A stretch of DNA of 64,000 bases from Paucibacter sp. KBW04 (GTDB lineage Bacteria > Pseudomonadota > Gammaproteobacteria > Burkholderiales > Burkholderiaceae_C), in contig NZ_QAJN01000003.1 of the NCBI RefSeq assembly GCF_003852425.1, positions 1-64,000 on the forward strand, read 5' to 3'. Shown piece after piece: positions 55,083 to 64,000 of this stretch. The notes beneath the pieces are model-generated. The model was not told the origin of the DNA and did not search any database. It saw only the letters and a program-made list of their open reading frames with translations. The translations under genes and the position numbers were made by a program. How positions within the stretch are numbered: the stretch's first letter is position 1; the number at the start of each line of letters is the position of its first letter.

Positions 55083-55328
55083 TTACTTCTTGATGGCGTC
55101 AACAGCCGAAGCAGCTGCATCAGCAGCGGCAGTGCCGACAGCCGAAGCTGCGTCAGCAGCGCCGGTGGCCACTGCGGAAGCGGCAGCCGAAGCAGCCGAG
55201 TCAACAGCGCTGGCGGCAGCCGAAGCGGCTTCAGCGACGGGAGCCACAACAGCGGCTTCTTCCTTCTTGCCGCAAGCGGTCAGGGCAACAGCAGCCAACA
55301 GGGTAGCCAACAGGATCGACTTGTTCAT
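55083..55328 (-). CDS. Small alanine-rich lipoprotein with 11-residue repeats
   Basis: The 81-residue product has a signal peptide and lipobox ending LTAC (Cys19), then GKKEEAAVVAPVAE. About four copies follow of an 11-residue unit: AASAAASAVDS, AASAAASAVAT, GAADAASAVGT and AAADAAASAVD; it ends AIKK. Since it lacks Asp at +2 after Cys (Gly-Lys instead), export to the outer membrane is expected. The mature part should form a long Ala-rich helix, somewhat like Lpp in layout but with 11-residue rather than 7-residue spacing. A GAGGA site precedes the ATG. No named family known to me. Confidence 0.78.
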   Translation of the reverse strand: MNKSILLATLLAAVALTACGKKEEAAVVAPVAEAASAAASAVDSAASAAASAVATGAADAASAVGTAAADAAASAVDAIKK

Positions 55329-55360
55329 ACTTGTCCTCAAAATTCGTTAAACGACGATGC

Positions 55361-57223: not shown

Positions 57224-57251
57224 GGCGGGCATTGTCGCCTGCTCCCCTGTT

Positions 57252-57292
57252 TCGAAATTGGGACGAGTTGCGCTCGCGCATCCCAGTTTCGA
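57252..57292. promoter_or_regulatory. Long inverted repeat, candidate enhancer site for the sigma-54 activator
   Basis: TCGAAATTGGGA (57252-57263) and TCCCAGTTTCGA (57281-57292) are inverted 12-base arms with one mismatch and a 17-base spacer. The first arm also contains the palindrome TTTCGAAA (57250-57257). The pair lies about 126-166 bases before the predicted start site of the exporter operon, the usual distance for NtrC-type binding sites. It is also close to the roxA start and could act there. Confidence 0.5.
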
Positions 57293-57390
57293 CATTCCTG
57301 AGCCTTCACTGCGCCAGATCAAGTCCGCGCACTTCGGCCATTCACCCGGGAAATCAAGCATTTGCCTTGTTTCCTCACGCACCTCGACCG

Positions 57391-57407
57391 CTGGCACGAC
57401 TCCTGCA
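57391..57407 (+). promoter_or_regulatory. Sigma-54 (-24/-12) promoter of the exporter operon
   Basis: CTGGCACGACTCCTGCA matches the RpoN consensus YTGGCACG-N4-TTGCW with one mismatch in the -12 part (CTGCA for TTGCA). GG (57393-57394) and GC (57405-57406) have the required 10 bases between them. The predicted start of transcription is near 57418, two to four bases before the ATG at 57421. Confidence 0.7.
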
Positions 57408-57420
57408 AAGCCGTCTTGAT

Positions 57421-58692
57421 ATGGACATTCAACGCGCACTCACACCACTCCAACGCTTGCGCCAAAAAGGCCCTCGCCTGGGCTTGGCCGCCCTCTTGCT
57501 GATCCTGCTCGCGGGCCTGCTCGCCCTGCGCTTGCAAGCCAAGCCCAGCGAGATGAGCGTGAGCCGCCAAGGTGTCGTGCTGGCCTCGGTTGAACGCGGC
57601 CCGCTGCAACTGGATGTGCGCGCCGCCGGCGTGCTGCTGCCCAGCCAGCAGCGCTGGATCGCAGCGCAAAGCGAGGGCCGGGTCGAACGGGTCGAGGTGC
57701 AGGCGGGCAGTTCGGTGCGCAAGGGTCAGGTCTTGCTCACCCTCAGCAATCCTCAGTTGCAGCTACGCCTGCTGGAGCTGCGCGGCCAGCTAGAGCAGGC
57801 CCGAGCCGAGATGAACGCCACCCAGCTCAGCCTGGAAAGCCAGGCACTGAACCAAGGCGCCGCCGTCCAGCGCGCCGAGTTTGCCCTGCGCAGTGCCGAG
57901 CTGCAGTGGGAGGCCGACCAGGAGTTGCGCAAGGACGGCATGGTTTCCAAACTGGCTTTTGAACGCAGCCGCTTCGCGCTGGAGCAAGCCCGCCAGACCT
58001 TGCAGCTAGAGCGTGAGCAACTGAGCCGACACCGCGCCGCCATGCAAGCCCAGTTGGAGGCAAAGCGCGCAGCCTTGAACCGCTGGCAGCAAAGCCTGCA
58101 AAGAGAGCAGGAGTTGATGGAAGCGCTCAACGTCCGGGCGCCAGAGGACGCGGTGGTGCAAGAGCTGAATCTGCAACCCGGGCAAAGCGTGTTGGCCGGC
58201 GCCAATCTGGCCAAGCTGGCGCGAGCCGACGCGCTCTACGCCCAGCTGCAGGTGCAAGAAGCCCAGGCCCGCGATATTGCCCTGGGCCAAAGCGCCCAGC
58301 TCGACCTGCGCAGCGGGGGCAGCGATGGCCAGCTCGGCGGCCAGGTCAGCCGCATCGCCGCCAAGGTGAGCAATGGGGTGGTGTTGGTGGACATCGCGCT
58401 GAGCGGCCCACTGCCGCGCGGCGCCCGCTCCGATCTGGGCGTGGACGGCGTCATCACCCTCAGCCGCCTGGACAACACCTTGCAAATTCAGCGCCCCTTG
58501 TTCAGCCAGGCGCAGAGCCGCGCCAGCCTCTTCCGCCTGGGCGCAGACGGCGTGCTGGAGCGGGTGCCCGTGCAGTTCGGCCCGGCCTCGGTGGGCCGTA
58601 TCGCCCTGCAGTCGGGCCTGAGCCTGGGCGATCAGGTGGTGGTATCCGACACCAGCGCCTGGCGCGAGGCGCAGCGCGTGCGCCTGCGTTGA
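57421..58692 (+). CDS. MacA/HlyD-type periplasmic adaptor (membrane fusion protein)
   Basis: The 423-residue protein has a cytoplasmic N-terminus of about 18 residues, one membrane helix (about 19-38), a split biotinyl-lipoyl domain (GRVERVEVQAGSSVRKGQVLLTL; VLNVRAPEDAVVQELNLQPGQ-like region) around a long coiled-coil hairpin (about 105-230), and a beta-barrel domain. It would link the ABC exporter to an outer-membrane channel. No channel gene is in the window. No Shine-Dalgarno site precedes the ATG, in line with the start site predicted from the sigma-54 promoter. First gene of the operon. Confidence 0.9.
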   Translation: MDIQRALTPLQRLRQKGPRLGLAALLLILLAGLLALRLQAKPSEMSVSRQGVVLASVERGPLQLDVRAAGVLLPSQQRWIAAQSEGRVERVEVQAGSSVRKGQVLLTLSNPQLQLRLLELRGQLEQARAEMNATQLSLESQALNQGAAVQRAEFALRSAELQWEADQELRKDGMVSKLAFERSRFALEQARQTLQLEREQLSRHRAAMQAQLEAKRAALNRWQQSLQREQELMEALNVRAPEDAVVQELNLQPGQSVLAGANLAKLARADALYAQLQVQEAQARDIALGQSAQLDLRSGGSDGQLGGQVSRIAAKVSNGVVLVDIALSGPLPRGARSDLGVDGVITLSRLDNTLQIQRPLFSQAQSRASLFRLGADGVLERVPVQFGPASVGRIALQSGLSLGDQVVVSDTSAWREAQRVRLR

Positions 58693-58765
58693 GGCAGCGG
58701 CCGCCCTGCACTCACTCACTTGACCCACTAACTTTCAACCTATATTGACCACCGAGGAGACGCCC

Positions 58766-59518
58766 ATGACTAGCCAGACCCAGCAGCCCGTCCTGATCCG
58801 CCTGCAAGGCATACAGAAGAGCTTTCTCAGCGATGAGCTGGAGACCCGCGCGCTGGACGACATCCATCTCGTCATCAGACGAGGTGAGTTCCTGGCCGTC
58901 AGCGGCCCCTCGGGCTGCGGCAAATCCAGCCTGCTGGCCATACTGGGCCTGCTGGACAGGCCCAGCGCCGGCCGCTATGAGCTGGACGGGCAAAGCGTCG
59001 AAAGCTTGGACAAGCGCGCCTGCGCCCTGCTGCGCAATCAAAGCATCGGCTTTGTGTTCCAGGCCTTCAATCTGATCGCCGAGTTGACGGTGGAGGAAAA
59101 CGTCGCCCTGCCGCTGAGCTATCGCAAGGATCTCAGCCGCGCCCAGCGCCGCAGCCGCGTGGCCGAGGTACTGGCCCAGGTCGACATGAGCCACCGCGCC
59201 CGCCACTACCCCAACCAGCTCTCCGGCGGCCAACAGCAAAGAGTCGCCATTGCCCGCGCCCTGGTGGGCCGGCCCAGCCTGATCCTGGCCGATGAGCCCA
59301 CCGGCAATCTGGACTCTCGCAATGCCGAGCTTGTGATGCAGCTGCTGAAAGAGGTGCACGCCGGCGGCGCCACGCTTTGCATGGTCACCCATGAGCCGCG
59401 CTTTGCCGCCATGGCCCAGCGCACGATCAGCCTCTACGACGGCCATATCGTGGCCGACCTGCCCAATGTGGCCAGCCCCGCGCCGCACTTGAGCAGCCAA
59501 GCGGCCGAGGTGCTGTGA
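58766..59518 (+). CDS. ABC transporter ATPase (MacB/LolD type)
   Basis: The 250-residue ATPase has Walker [12 protein letters not shown], the Q-loop [22 protein letters not shown], signature [15 protein letters not shown], Walker [14 protein letters not shown] and the H-loop VTHEPRF. The [10 protein letters not shown] and TGNLD features are those of the MacB/LolD/FtsE group that serves FtsX-like permeases. A GAGGAG site lies 6 bases before the ATG at 58766. Its stop overlaps the permease start (TGATG). Confidence 0.93.
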
Positions 59519-61977
59519 TGCGCGACGACCTGAACCACGCCCTGCGCGCCCTGCTGCGCGCCCCGGGCTTCAGCTTGCTGAGTCTCTTGAGCCTGATCTG
59601 CGGCCTGGGCTTTGCCATTTACAGCGCCGCCATCTATTTCAGCTTTGTGGACGGCCACATCCCCTTCCCCGAGCCCGGCCGCCTGCGTGCGGTGGAGGCC
59701 ACCCGCCAGGCCGATCGCACCCAGGCCAATAGCGTGCATTACCTGGACTACCTGGCGTACGCCAGCCAAACCCGGGGCCGCAGCTGGGAGGACATGCAAG
59801 CCTTGCGCACCGCTACCGTCACCTTGGGGCACAGCCGCAGCTACCCCAGCACCTTCAAGGCGGCCTATGTACCCGCCGCGCTCTGGCCTTGGCTGGGCGA
59901 GGCCGCCCGACCCGAGCTCGGCCGCTTGCTGCAAGCCAGTGACGAGCAGGCCGGTGCAGCGCCCGTGGTGGTGATAGGCGCCGAGGTCTGGCGCAATTTT
60001 TTGGCGGCTGACCCCAAGGTGATCGGCAGCCACCTCAAGATCAACGGGGTGGACACCGAGATCGTCGGCGTGCTGCCCGCGCAGCTGCGCTTCCCCATGG
60101 TTCAGCAGGTCTGGCTGCCTTTCCGCCCGCCCAGCGGTCCGCTCAGCCGCGGCAAGGGCCAAAGCATGGGCACACCCCAGCATGTGATGGTGCTGGGCCG
60201 CCTCAAAGCCGGCGCCTCGGCCGCCCAGGCCCAGGCCGAGCTGGATCAGGTCGCCGCCCAGCTGGCACAAAGCTTTCCGGCCAATAACAAGGACGTGGGC
60301 GCCATCGCCCTGCCCTATGCGGCCTGGGGCATGCCCGATCTGGAACTGATCTACCTGGGTCTGGCCGCCGCGGCGGCCCTGCTGCTGGCCCTGGTTGGCA
60401 TCAACACCAGCAATCTGCTGCTGGCACGCGCCAACGAGCGCCGTCAGGAACTGGCCTTGCGTGCCGCCCTCGGTGCCCCGCGATCCCGGTTGATCTGGCG
60501 CCTGCTGCTGGAGGCCTTGCTGCTGTGCGGCGCTGCGGGCTTGGTCGGCCTCTTCTTCAGTGCCTGGGCGCTGGAGGCCACGCAGCAGGCCGTGCTCAGC
60601 ACCGCCGACGGCCGCCTGCCCTTCTGGATACAGATCCACCTCAGCCCGGCCGCCGTGGTCTGCGGCCTGGGCCTGAGTGTGGCCATCGCCTTGCTGACCG
60701 CCGGCCTGCCCGCCTGGCGCGCTTCCGCCGTGGACGTGGCCTCGGTCTTGCGCGATGGTCGCGGTGGCAACAGCCGCCAGGCCGGCCGCCTCAGCCGCGC
60801 CTTGGTGGTCTTGCAAATCGCCTTGTCCAGCCTGCTCCTGCTGCTCTCGGGCATGCAAACCGTCGAGGTGGAGCGGCGCCTGAACGCCGGCACCGGAGCG
60901 CGCAGCCATGCGGTGATGACGGCGCAGCTGCAACCGCGCCTGGCCGTTTATCAGGGGCCCGAGGCCGAGCCGGCCTTGGCTCAGCTCTGGGCGCGCTTGG
61001 AGACCGCCCTGCAAGAGCAGGTGGATGGCAGCACGGGCGTCGCCCTGTCCACCAGCCTGCCCGGTGGCGGCATGCGCTCCAGCGAGGAGGTCTTGGCCGA
61101 GGGCATGCAGATCAGCGATGAGCGCTACCCCAGCGCCGGTGACTACAGCGTCAACAGCGGCTATTTCAAGGCCCTGGAAGTCCCCCTGCTGGCCGGGCGC
61201 GAATTCAGCAGCAGCGATAGAGCCGAGGGGCTCAAGGTGGCCGTGGTCAACGCCAATTTCGCGGCCCAGTTCTGGCCCGGCCAAAGCCTGCATGCGGTGC
61301 TGGGCAAACGCTTCAAAGTCGACCCCAAGAACCCCAAAAGCGACTGGGTCACCGTGGTGGGTGTCTGCGCCCATCTGATCCAGGGTATTGCAGGGGACGC
61401 CGGCCGGCGGGCCGCCAACTTCTATCGCCCGCTGAGCCAAGCACCCTCGCCGGACATCAATATCGGCCTGGTGGGCCTGAACGACACAGCGGCCAGCCGC
61501 GAGCTCTTGGCCCGTGCCGTGGCCAAGGCCGACCCCGCCCTGGCGCTGGAGCGGGTCTATAGCGCGGAGGAGCGCCAACGCATCGCCTACGGCGGCGAGG
61601 AGGTGATGTCGGCGCTGTGCCTGATTCTGGGCATGATGACCATGAGCTTGGCCGTCAGCGGCATCTACGGCGTCACCAGCCGAGCCGTGCAGCTGCGCGG
61701 CCAGGAAATCGCCGTGCGCCGCGCGGTCGGCGCGACCGACGCTCAGATGATGCGTCTGCTGATGGCCCAGGCCCTGCGCCTGCTGCTCATCGCCCTGCCC
61801 CTGGGTCTGCTGGCCGGTGCCTTGATCCTGCGCCAGGACGCGGCCTCCGCAGCCCTGCTGGCCGCGGGCCTGAGCTTGGTCGCCCTGGTGATCAGCAGTC
61901 TGGTCTTGGTCTCCACCTGGCTGCCCGCCCGCCAAGCCCTGCGCCAGCTGCCCAGCGCGGCTCTCAACAGTGTTTGA
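59518..61977 (+). CDS. MacB/FtsX-type ABC permease with two periplasmic core domains
   Basis: The 819-residue permease has eight predicted membrane segments in two FtsX-like blocks. TM1 is near residue 20, three segments lie near 280-400, one near 430 and three at the C-terminus. MacB_PCD periplasmic domains lie between them (about 45-270 and 455-680). The second block ends with VQLRGQEIAVRRAVGATDAQ, typical of the family. It is one long chain rather than two 400-residue subunits, as in YbbP-like or duplicated permeases. Such transporters transmit ATP energy to periplasmic partners (mechanotransmission) and export peptides, lipids or toxins. The start is ATG at 59518; a GTG one codon upstream is possible. 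Confidence 0.88.
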   Translation: MRDDLNHALRALLRAPGFSLLSLLSLICGLGFAIYSAAIYFSFVDGHIPFPEPGRLRAVEATRQADRTQANSVHYLDYLAYASQTRGRSWEDMQALRTATVTLGHSRSYPSTFKAAYVPAALWPWLGEAARPELGRLLQASDEQAGAAPVVVIGAEVWRNFLAADPKVIGSHLKINGVDTEIVGVLPAQLRFPMVQQVWLPFRPPSGPLSRGKGQSMGTPQHVMVLGRLKAGASAAQAQAELDQVAAQLAQSFPANNKDVGAIALPYAAWGMPDLELIYLGLAAAAALLLALVGINTSNLLLARANERRQELALRAALGAPRSRLIWRLLLEALLLCGAAGLVGLFFSAWALEATQQAVLSTADGRLPFWIQIHLSPAAVVCGLGLSVAIALLTAGLPAWRASAVDVASVLRDGRGGNSRQAGRLSRALVVLQIALSSLLLLLSGMQTVEVERRLNAGTGARSHAVMTAQLQPRLAVYQGPEAEPALAQLWARLETALQEQVDGSTGVALSTSLPGGGMRSSEEVLAEGMQISDERYPSAGDYSVNSGYFKALEVPLLAGREFSSSDRAEGLKVAVVNANFAAQFWPGQSLHAVLGKRFKVDPKNPKSDWVTVVGVCAHLIQGIAGDAGRRAANFYRPLSQAPSPDINIGLVGLNDTAASRELLARAVAKADPALALERVYSAEERQRIAYGGEEVMSALCLILGMMTMSLAVSGIYGVTSRAVQLRGQEIAVRRAVGATDAQMMRLLMAQALRLLLIALPLGLLAGALILRQDAASAALLAAGLSLVALVISSLVLVSTWLPARQALRQLPSAALNSV

Positions 61978-62001
61978 GGCGGGGCTCCCCAGCAGCGGTC
62001 T

Positions 62002-62030
62002 GGCCGGGCGAGAATGGCCCGGCCATTTTT
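62002..62030 (+). terminator. Terminator-like hairpin between permease and regulator genes
   Basis: GGCCGGGC (62002-62009) and GCCCGGCC (62017-62024) form a perfect 8-bp stem with a 7-base loop, followed by ATTTTT (62025-62030). It lies in the 63-base gap inside the operon. Partial termination here would make less regulator than transporter. Confidence 0.65.
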
Positions 62031-62040
62031 CCTCGACCCA

Positions 62041-63450
62041 ATGACTCGAAATCCCAGCAGCATGGAAGCCCAGGCCAGCAAGCCGGAAAGCGCGCCCGTC
62101 CTGGTCGCCGACGACGATGCCGCCGTGCGTGCGGCCCTGCGTCTGTTTCTCAAAAGCGAGGGCTTGAGCAGCGTGCTGGTGGCCTCGCCACAAGAAGCCC
62201 TTGTTGAGCTGGGGCGCGGCGAGGTCGGTCTCTTGCTGGCCGACCTCAACTACGCCCGCGACACCACCTCGGGGGAAGAGGGCCTGGGCTTGATCCGCGC
62301 GGCGCGTGCTCAAGCCCCCCTGCTGCCCATCGTCGCGATGACGGCCTGGGGCAGCATCCCGCTGGCGGTGCAAGCCCTGCAGCTGGGGGCCAATGATTTC
62401 ATCGAGAAGCCCTGGGACAACGCGCGCCTGGCCGCCGTGCTGCGCAATCAGCTGAGCTTGCACAGCAGCCGTCAGCAAGCCCAGCGCCTGGCGGCCGAGA
62501 ACGCCTTGCTGCAGGCCGACAGCGCCGATAAACCCTGGTTGGGTCAGTCCCCGGCCTTGCTAAGCCTGATGCAAAAAGTGGCCGCGCTGGCACCAACCGA
62601 GGTCAACCTCTTGATCACCGGCGAGAACGGCAGCGGCAAAAGCCAGCTGGCCCAGGCCATCCACCGCCAAAGCAAACGCGCCGCCGGCCCCTTCATCAGC
62701 CTGAATATGGGCGCCATCCCGGAGACGCTGTTCGAGAGCGAGATGTTCGGCCACGAGCGCGGCGCCTTCACCGACGCGCGCCAGACCCGGCTGGGGCGCT
62801 TCGAGTTGGCCGATGGGGGGACTTTGTTCTTGGACGAGGTGGGCAATATCCCGCTGGCCCAGCAGGCCAAGCTCTTGCGGGTGCTGGAGAGCGGGGCTTT
62901 CGAGCGCCTGGGCTCGGCCACGCCGCGCCAGGCCCAGGTCCGCCTCATCGCCGCCACCAATGCCGACCTGGATCAGCTGGTGAGCCAGGGCCTGTTCCGC
63001 CGCGACCTGCTCTACCGGCTCAATAGCGTGCAGCTGCATCTGCCGCCCCTGCGCGAGCGCGGCGCCGACATCTTGCTGCTGGCCCAGCACTTTCTGGCCG
63101 CGCATGCCCGGCGCTATCAAAAGCCCTTGCGCACCCTGTCCGAATCCGCTCAGCAGCTCTTGCTGAGCCACGCTTGGCCCGGCAATGTGCGTGAGTTGAG
63201 CCACTGCATGGAAAGAGCCAGTCTGTTGAGCCAGGGCGACCGCATCGAGGCCAGCGATTTGGGCCTGCAAGCCCAAGCCAAGCCGCCGGCCCAGGAGCCG
63301 GAACTGGAACAGCTGACCCTGGACGAGGCCGAGAAGCTGCTGATCCGCAAGGCCTTGCAGCGCAGCGAGGGCAATGCCTTGCTGGCGGCCCAAACCCTGG
63401 GCCTGAGCCGCTCGGCCTTTTACCGTCGCCTGGAAAAGCACCAGCTGTGA
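62041..63450 (+). CDS. NtrC-family sigma-54-dependent response regulator
   Basis: The 469-residue product has a receiver domain (VADDDAAVR; phospho-acceptor Asp68 in LLLADLNYARDTTSGEEG), a central AAA+ domain with Walker A GENGSGKS (194-201), the sigma-54 contact loop GAFTDA (241-246, where most members have GAFTGA), Walker B GGTLFLDEVGNI, and the Arg-finger region. A Fis-type helix-turn-helix ends the protein (GNALLAAQTLGLSRSAFYRRLEKHQL, read in two parts). It should activate RpoN promoters when phosphorylated by the kinase encoded next. The ATG at 62041 fits; the frame is open upstream. Confidence 0.93.
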   Translation: MTRNPSSMEAQASKPESAPVLVADDDAAVRAALRLFLKSEGLSSVLVASPQEALVELGRGEVGLLLADLNYARDTTSGEEGLGLIRAARAQAPLLPIVAMTAWGSIPLAVQALQLGANDFIEKPWDNARLAAVLRNQLSLHSSRQQAQRLAAENALLQADSADKPWLGQSPALLSLMQKVAALAPTEVNLLITGENGSGKSQLAQAIHRQSKRAAGPFISLNMGAIPETLFESEMFGHERGAFTDARQTRLGRFELADGGTLFLDEVGNIPLAQQAKLLRVLESGAFERLGSATPRQAQVRLIAATNADLDQLVSQGLFRRDLLYRLNSVQLHLPPLRERGADILLLAQHFLAAHARRYQKPLRTLSESAQQLLLSHAWPGNVRELSHCMERASLLSQGDRIEASDLGLQAQAKPPAQEPELEQLTLDEAEKLLIRKALQRSEGNALLAAQTLGLSRSAFYRRLEKHQL

Positions 63451-64000
63451 AAGCGATTCGCCAAGGCAGGCAGGGCTTCGCCCAAAAGCAGTTTCTTTGG
63501 GCTTTGGCGGGCGGCGCCCCGGCCTTGGCCATCGCCGCTTATTTGCTCAGTCAGCAAGCCTGGTCCATCTACCCCAAGATTCTGTTGCTGAGCCTGGCCG
63601 CAGCCGCCTGGCTGGGCGCGGCCTGGCGCTTGCGTCAGCGGGCGGAGTTTCAGCGCCTGCTGCTGGGCAATGTGATCGAAGGCGTGATCGCCGGTGAGTA
63701 CCAGCAACGCCTACGCCGCGCCGGCCCCGAGGACTTGTTGGGCGAGCAAATCAATCGCTTGGTCGACAGCCTGTACCAGCAGCGCCAGCAGGCGATGGCT
63801 GCGCTGAGCCTGGCCGAGAACGTCGTGCAGCAGCTGGATGTGGCGGTGTTTGCTTTTGACGAACAAGATTGCCTGCAACTGGCCAACCCCAGCGCCCTAC
63901 GCCTGCTGCAATGCATTGCCTCACAAGCCCTGGGCCGGGAGGCCAGAAGCCTGGGCCTGGCGGCACTTTTGCAGGCGGACACCGAGCAGCTCTGCGAGCA
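63447..64000 (+). CDS. Sensor histidine kinase, N-terminal part
   Basis: The gene begins with GTG at 63447, overlapping the regulator stop (GTGA), and runs off the right edge after about 184 residues. Two membrane segments (about 17-35 and 44-62) are joined by a very short loop. A HAMP-less coiled stretch (LRQRAEFQRLLLGNVIEGVIAG) and a PAS-like part (VVQQLDVAVFAFDEQDCLQLANPSALRLLQ) follow. The lack of a periplasmic domain suggests sensing within the membrane or cytoplasm. The catalytic domains would lie beyond the window; the kinase call rests on the PAS pattern and on position after the response regulator. Confidence 0.75.
   Translation, partial: MKAIRQGRQGFAQKQFLWALAGGAPALAIAAYLLSQQAWSIYPKILLLSLAAAAWLGAAWRLRQRAEFQRLLLGNVIEGVIAGEYQQRLRRAGPEDLLGEQINRLVDSLYQQRQQAMAALSLAENVVQQLDVAVFAFDEQDCLQLANPSALRLLQCIASQALGREARSLGLAALLQADTEQLCE

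Follow-up and report, generated by a model that had tools for sequence, protein, structure and literature searches.

The operon and its promoter

We analyzed the first 64,000 nucleotides (nt) of contig NZ_QAJN01000003.1 (C22 in our numbering) of Paucibacter sp. KBW04, whose genome measures 5.6 Mb. This stretch, hereafter the window, ends within an operon that joins the genes of an ATP-binding cassette (ABC) transporter to those of a two-component system. Its five genes encode a periplasmic adaptor of the HlyD/RND_mfp type (57421-58692, 423 amino acids, aa), an ABC ATPase of the MacB/LolD/FtsE type (58766-59518, 250 aa), a duplicated, ADOP-like permease of the MacB/FtsX type (59518-61977, 819 aa), an NtrC-type response regulator (62041-63450, with an alternative ATG at 62014), and a sensor histidine kinase, which starts at 63447 and runs beyond position 64000 to contig position 64847. 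The window holds the first 184 of the 466 aa of the kinase, and the remainder was read from the contig. The regulator has the domain set of the NtrC family, i.e., a receiver, a Sigma54_activat AAA+ domain (with the loop GAFTDA), and a Fis-type helix-turn-helix, while the kinase consists of a membrane hairpin, a PAS-like domain, HisKA, and HATPase. An earlier note on this DNA described five genes on the same strand with overlaps. All five are indeed on the + strand, but overlaps occur at only two of the four junctions (1 nt between ATPase and permease, 4 nt between regulator and kinase); the others have gaps of 73 nt (adaptor/ATPase) and 63 nt (permease/regulator). The label "MacB-type" given to the exporter is loose: ATPase and permease are separate genes, unlike in the fused MacB, the 819-aa permease is duplicated, and its best full-length match is to ADOP, although below the cut-off. 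None of the five operon genes encodes an outer-membrane channel (the TolC partner), for which the genome was not searched.

A near-consensus RpoN promoter had been claimed directly before the adaptor gene, and a consensus -24/-12 site of the sigma54 type is found there: TGGCACG-N4-CTGCA (TGGCACGACTCCTGCA, 57392-57407, + strand). It is the sole strict match in the window. Shuffled windows contain on average 0.08 matches each, and 8 out of 100 have at least one, so the match taken alone is suggestive only. Across the genome, the strict pattern occurs 12 times, against once for the reversed control. Among the other 11 matches, one precedes a paralogous operon on contig C1 (see below), one lies before what we take to be a pilin-like gene (leader of 62 nt), and one before a presumed aldehyde-dehydrogenase-like gene (leader of 69 nt); some of the rest fall within open frames. 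One rpoN gene was found in the genome.

Conservation of gene order, promoter, and predicted mRNA start

Close relatives of the kinase (E < 1e-100) were found in 10 of the 18 genomes of the genus, including the window's own, and in 7 of the 299 drawn from the family; the sample of the order gave relatives in 2 of 300 genomes (cut-off 1e-40). The three samples together provided 14 loci, hereafter the window clade. The window kinase shares 90% identity with the kinase of genome G303, and the five-gene order is kept in all 13 other loci. In a wide scan of species genomes, we considered the best 80 loci, among which Gammaproteobacteria, Acidobacteriota, Gemmatimonadota, and Verrucomicrobiota are represented. 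Twelve gammaproteobacterial loci have the same succession of adaptor, ATPase, single long permease, regulator, and kinase, as do plasmids of Rahnella, Xenorhabdus, and Pseudoalteromonas; loci of other phyla frequently have more genes or a different order. The arrangement, described earlier as not textbook, is thus not a one-off, but a family found across several phyla. Before counting upstream sites, we excluded L099-L104 (genomes shared with window-clade loci), L191, L209, L211, and L213 (near copies), L170 (no upstream sequence), L133 and other loci lacking a recognized adaptor in front, and the paralogous L073 and L096 (2 of 27).

The earlier note had stated beforehand that absence of the motif before orthologous operons would count against it. 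A sigma54-like site (score of at least 13, within 150 base pairs (bp) upstream of the first gene) is present in 14/14 window-clade loci, and the GG-N10-GC core is kept in the orthologues. With the same scoring, the site was found in 9/13 Gammaproteobacteria and in 3/6 Enterobacterales, our label for the genomes grouped with a Xenorhabdus genome. Control windows from the same loci reached 13 in 14 of 3062 cases (7/1092 in the window clade, 4/1521 in Gammaproteobacteria, and 3/449 in Enterobacterales). The cut-off was chosen after an initial look, with one scoring table and identical treatment of the controls; L147 and L161, where sigma54-like sites lie just inside an overextended open reading frame (ORF), were scored as misses. 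A chance match, against which the shuffles would be insufficient, is made unlikely by the genome-wide enrichment together with this conservation. In 13/14 loci of the window clade, GAFTDA goes together with a -12 element of the form CTGC, but we claim no co-variation, because this clade is a single lineage and the picture in the wider set is mixed.

At sigma54 promoters, +1 lies 12 nt after the C of the -12 element. This places the predicted start of the mRNA near 57418, 3 nt upstream of the adaptor ATG. In 11/14 window-clade loci (including the window and L060-L069) the -24/-12 site is 26-29 nt ahead of the ATG, and the predicted leader measures 0-3 nt; in the others it measures 26, 26, and 68 nt. 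The start codon is well placed, since 5 of the 11 short-leader loci have an in-frame stop two or three codons ahead of it, and the adaptor N-terminus MD[ILV]xR is kept in 14/14 loci. We infer from these positions that the mRNA may be leaderless. If mapped, such a start behind a sigma54-type promoter in 11/14 loci would be an unusual feature.

An upstream palindrome and a GAFTDA regulator

The regions upstream of the operons of this family contain the palindrome TCCCA-N4-TGGGA, often doubled. If one mismatch is tolerated, the 300 bp upstream contain it in 9/14 loci of the window clade, 10/13 of Gammaproteobacteria, and 4/6 of Enterobacterales, i.e., in 23/33; of the other windows, 4 of 1483 have it, and shuffles yield a mean of 0.36 overall. 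The palindrome was discovered in the very regions in which it was later counted, with controls treated identically, and start codons were assigned by hand in some overextended ORFs. When up to two mismatches are allowed, most site centers are found 60-127 bp away from the -24 element; in four loci this distance is 142-173 bp, and a stray match lies at 13.5 bp. In loci with two sites, the spacing is 23 or 32-33 bp in 10/13. The window has two candidate enhancer sites. The first (TCCCAATTTCGAAA, 57250-57263, - strand) is a degenerate palindrome with one exact half and more than two mismatches overall, weak alone; the second (TCCCAGTTTCGACA, 57281-57294, + strand) is likewise degenerate with one half exact. 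They are 31 bp apart, and the -24 element is about 137 bp from the first and about 106 bp from the second. A scan of the genome for a regulon, with a pattern built from these two sites and up to one mismatch allowed, gave no third match; its reversed control gave four, so that this result carries little information.

Two loci of Verrucomicrobiota each carry two units made of a palindrome and a sigma54-like site: L108 (4750-4892 and 9831-9975) and L112 (5980-6117 and 10240-10383). Three of these four units have a predicted leader of 3-6 nt before a start codon, and the fourth has no recognized gene.

The AAA+ loop reads GAFTDA, and not exactly GAFTGA, in 14/14 regulators of the window clade. 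Among the best 80 loci, selected via the kinase and not via GAFTDA, and with near copies counted, position five of the loop is Asp in 77/79 regulators; one has GSFTGA and one could not be read. In the paralogous type, Asp is found at this position in 0/26. Sigma54 control and autoregulation had been suggested in the earlier note from the promoter and the class of the regulator: the 14/14 conserved sites support this, while the loop is GAFTDA rather than GAFTGA. Among natural variants of the loop, GAFTDA is one for which activity is expected, as in DVU2106 of Desulfovibrio, which has target operons (PubMed Central, PMC4641369). In our reading, the window's regulator would work with sigma54. A tree of 121 sequences joins the window clade to 23 proteobacterial GAFTDA regulators, including those of L207 and L208, which resemble the Vfm quorum-sensing system of the plant-rotting Dickeya (see below). 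Support for this fork is 92 by the Shimodaira-Hasegawa-like approximate likelihood ratio test (SH-aLRT; the tool's mark is 95), obtained with a quick method and long outgroup branches. The paralogous type is separate from the window clade, and L132 and L146 fall outside the fork.

Possible sensing by the kinase and the permease

The complete 466-aa sequence agrees with the earlier impression that the kinase lacks a periplasmic domain. Its structural model, with a mean predicted local distance difference test (pLDDT) of 78, starts with helices at residues 11-35 and 41-82 joined by a linker of about 5 residues, followed by a PAS-like domain and the catalytic core. The hydropathy profile places 8 residues between the two membrane peaks; the script also gave a third or fourth segment in 11/14 window-clade kinases, two overextended ORFs came out with gaps of 59 and 64, and the short loop rests also on the alignment and the model. 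The model of the permease (mean pLDDT 85) shows eight long helices and two periplasmic domains. Its best Foldseek matches are YbbAP and MacB, with LolCDE, BceAB, and BceAB-S lower down. The earlier suggestion that the signal lies in the membrane, such as a lipid or an antimicrobial peptide effect, is supported by no result of this analysis.

In Bce systems, the kinase is driven by the activity of the transporter (PMC7038271). The idea of a permease as co-sensor is already in print for Vfm. With Bce as a model, this role was proposed for the permease VfmG of Dickeya because VfmG, and not the kinase VfmI, varies with the type of signal, and VfmI as described there has no ligand domain (PMC9306890). 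Homology makes transporter-coupled sensing likely, and the model and the analogy with Bce and Vfm support, without proving, the permease as receptor in the window's operon.

Relationship to Vfm

The kinase matches on Rahnella plasmids sit in a cluster with genes for MATE, AraC, phosphopantetheinyl transferase (PPTase), and acyl carrier protein (ACP) synthase. In L207-L209 the order is hypothetical, MATE, hydrolase, AraC, ATPase, permease, regulator, kinase, PPTase, and DUF2807. In the regulator of L207, GAFTDA is at 231 and arginines are at 195, 279, and 344, which agrees with the published numbering of VfmH, the Vfm regulator (PMC10714721). L207-L209 are therefore Vfm clusters or very close to them.

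Among systems that have been studied, Vfm is the nearest relative of the window's operon, which shares with it an adjacent ATPase and permease, a GAFTDA regulator, and a hairpin kinase. Permease, regulator, and kinase adjoin in the order of VfmGHI, the two groups of regulators are on one side of the tree fork, and in VfmI, too, a very short loop joins two membrane helices (PMC9306890). Three differences stand out. The window's operon starts with an adaptor gene, none being recognized in L207-L209; it has no adjoining signal-synthesis, PPTase, or AraC-type genes; and the three arginines with which VfmH is reported to bind cyclic di-GMP correspond to Gln, Arg, and Ala in its regulator. Genes for signal synthesis (adenylation proteins, ACP synthases, PPTase) are not found beside the operon, the rest of the genome not having been searched, and therefore we claim no Vfm-like signaling role for it. 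In our best reading, it is related to Vfm and has no signal-synthesis genes alongside.

In five loci (L190, L205, and L207-L209, of which L208 and L209 are near copies), the AraC-type, vfmE-like gene has a sigma54-like site upstream (scores 14.3-19.3), with the palindrome 60 to 123 bp further upstream in all five. Within 12 kb, this site is the sole one scoring at least 13 in L208 and L209, and one of two in L207. VfmH is needed for the transcription of vfmE (PMC10714721). Sigma54 works in D. dadantii, where RpoN with HrpS drives hrpL (PMC11960120). Given the sites before the AraC-type gene, we predict that VfmH uses sigma54. Our searches of open-licence papers in PMC turned up neither a sigma54 site nor an enhancer described for operons of this type or for VfmH.

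In the Vfm-like clusters of Rahnella and a relative (L190, 5574-5866; L205, 2636-2929), divergent sigma54-like sites on both strands flank shared palindromes between the AraC-type and adaptor genes.

Interpretation and alternatives

We read the whole block as one autoregulated operon in which a two-component system is coupled to its transporter, with a probability of about 0.62. The permease, with its two periplasmic domains, would be the real receptor, and the state of the transporter would switch the hairpin kinase. The kinase would phosphorylate the operon's regulator, which would bind the palindromic enhancers about 60-140 bp upstream and drive the sigma54 RNA polymerase at -24/-12. More substrate would then lead to more pump, sensor, and regulator. 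Comparison with relatives shows each part that can be read from DNA: gene order, conserved sigma54-like site, enhancer-like palindromes in relatives, regulator class, and the lack of a periplasmic sensor domain in the kinase. On these grounds, sigma54 autoregulation is well supported, and the palindromes are presumably bound by the encoded regulator. The GAFTDA group, the upstream palindrome, the relationship to Vfm, and the predicted leader of 0-3 nt are additions to the earlier note.

Several observations weigh against this reading. The window's own copies of the palindrome fail the two-mismatch test, as do those of L059. We looked at 18 further loci, of which four had no upstream sequence; among the remaining 14 (13 from other phyla and one of Lysobacteraceae), the palindrome with at most one mismatch is found in 3 (L106, L108, and L112), which is the fair figure, since these loci and L172 were picked for sites already seen and excluded from the totals. 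L106 has the palindrome and no sigma54-like site. In L207 and L208, no sigma54-like site lies ahead of the transporter genes themselves. Sigma54 was not recovered in the pull-downs of VfmH, as reported in PMC10714721, where the binding of sigma54 by GAFTDA is left open. The last two points concern the kinase. Its PAS-like cytoplasmic domain, with strands at residues 133-219 of the model, could be the sensor; Foldseek matches of the kinase model include LOV/PAS kinases and WalK. Among the 79 of the best 80 loci with a recognized kinase, 15 have no transporter-type gene nearby; 10 of these have less than 3 kb of upstream sequence, whereas L105, L107, L127, L162, and L164 have ample sequence and no such gene nearby.

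These two points favor the alternative that the kinase itself senses, through the PAS-like domain or the hairpin, the transporter being only an output; sigma54 autoregulation would be unchanged. We regard this as a possibility to be taken seriously, if an unlikely one. In 64/79 loci, a transporter-type gene lies on the same strand within 9 kb of the kinase (26 have all three kinds), and in Dickeya the kinase stays constant while the permease varies with the signal (PMC9306890).

That a GAFTDA regulator works without sigma54, through other factors, with another activator driving the -24/-12 site, seems improbable to us. It would fit the case of VfmH, which interacts with CRP, found in its pull-downs (PMC10714721). 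GAFTDA is nevertheless listed as a variant that should be functional (PMC4641369), and the palindrome and the sigma54-like site co-occur before operons that encode a GAFTDA regulator; of the loci of the paralogous GAFTGA/GAYTGA type, in contrast, 20/25 have sigma54-like sites and just 3/25 the palindrome. Finally, we give very little credence to an inactive -24/-12 match with transcription from another promoter, which the shuffle matches and the 3-nt leader would favor (it leaves no room for a ribosome site, and therefore a start further upstream is possible), given that the site is kept in 14/14 window-clade loci, in 11 of them at a near-constant distance from the ATG, and that the strict pattern is enriched in the genome, with two matches before the presumed pilin-like and aldehyde-dehydrogenase-like genes.

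Beyond the autoregulated, transporter-coupled operon, we tentatively propose, at somewhat under even odds, that the GAFTDA group is a distinct, old lineage of sigma54 activators devoted to transporter-coupled sensing, with a code of TCCCA-N4-TGGGA and -24/-12 site shared by Proteobacteria and both Verrucomicrobiota loci examined. Vfm would be a branch that gained a signal-making cluster, with VfmH acting via sigma54 at vfmE, and the window a branch without it, whose mRNA starts at the start codon. The operon and its relatives yield a prediction at the level of DNA on a point that published work leaves unanswered, namely whether a GAFTDA regulator such as VfmH works with sigma54. They also set the Vfm receptor module, known from Dickeya, within a broader family of two-component systems associated with transporters, and they offer environmental hosts in which to ask whether an ABC permease can be the receptor in Gram-negative bacteria.

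Paralogous operon, other known systems, and neighboring genes

The same genome has a paralogous operon (L072, G000:C1:340385-349216), headed by one of the strict sigma54 matches. It also encodes an adaptor, an ATPase, permeases, an NtrC-type regulator whose loop is GAFTGA, and a kinase. This type differs by a GAFTGA-like loop (GAFTGA/GAYTGA), two permease genes, and a -12 element that is mostly TTGC. Its sigma54-like sites compare with 17/966 in control windows (300 bp), the palindrome is missing in 22/25 loci, and the predicted start lies 0-2 nt from the start codon in 8/25.

Regulators of Bce systems are of the OmpR type, whereas the window has an NtrC-type regulator, a separate adaptor, and a duplicated permease with two periplasmic domains. 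Its likeness to BceAB-BceRS of Bacillota lies in a hairpin kinase without a sensor domain (PMC9306890) encoded beside transporter genes. The operon resembles MacA-MacB-TolC in having an adaptor and MacB-type permease halves and differs in the unfused ATPase and the duplicated permease, which scores 60.8 bits against the NCBIfam MacB cut-off of 966. The match to ADOP (TIGR03434) is full-length (residues 2-816), but its 499.5 bits are below the cut-off of 622.3, and an ATPase gene adjoins here; the best fold match is E. coli YbbAP. Two further candidates were rejected: darobactin-type export, since the NCBIfam matches to DarC and DarD are below cut-off (61.5 vs. 450 and 243.3 vs. 375 bits), and a defense system, since the PADLOC matches of regulator, permease, and ATPase are only to models sharing their domains.

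Upstream lies a divergent RoxA-like gene (JmjC_2 and ROXA winged helix), found in 11/14 window-clade loci. A gene of 172 aa with no Pfam match follows the kinase in 9/14; at L004 (10860-11378) it begins 12 nt past the kinase stop, and it is 78-86% identical in 8 other window-clade loci. By eye, we take it to resemble an FKBP/SlyD-type protein. Further neighbors are ORFs that are presumably dUTPase- and CoaBC-like. The window also contains, at 55083-55340 on the - strand, a small lipoprotein-like ORF of 85 aa in which Ala is very abundant, next to Ser, Val, and Asp.

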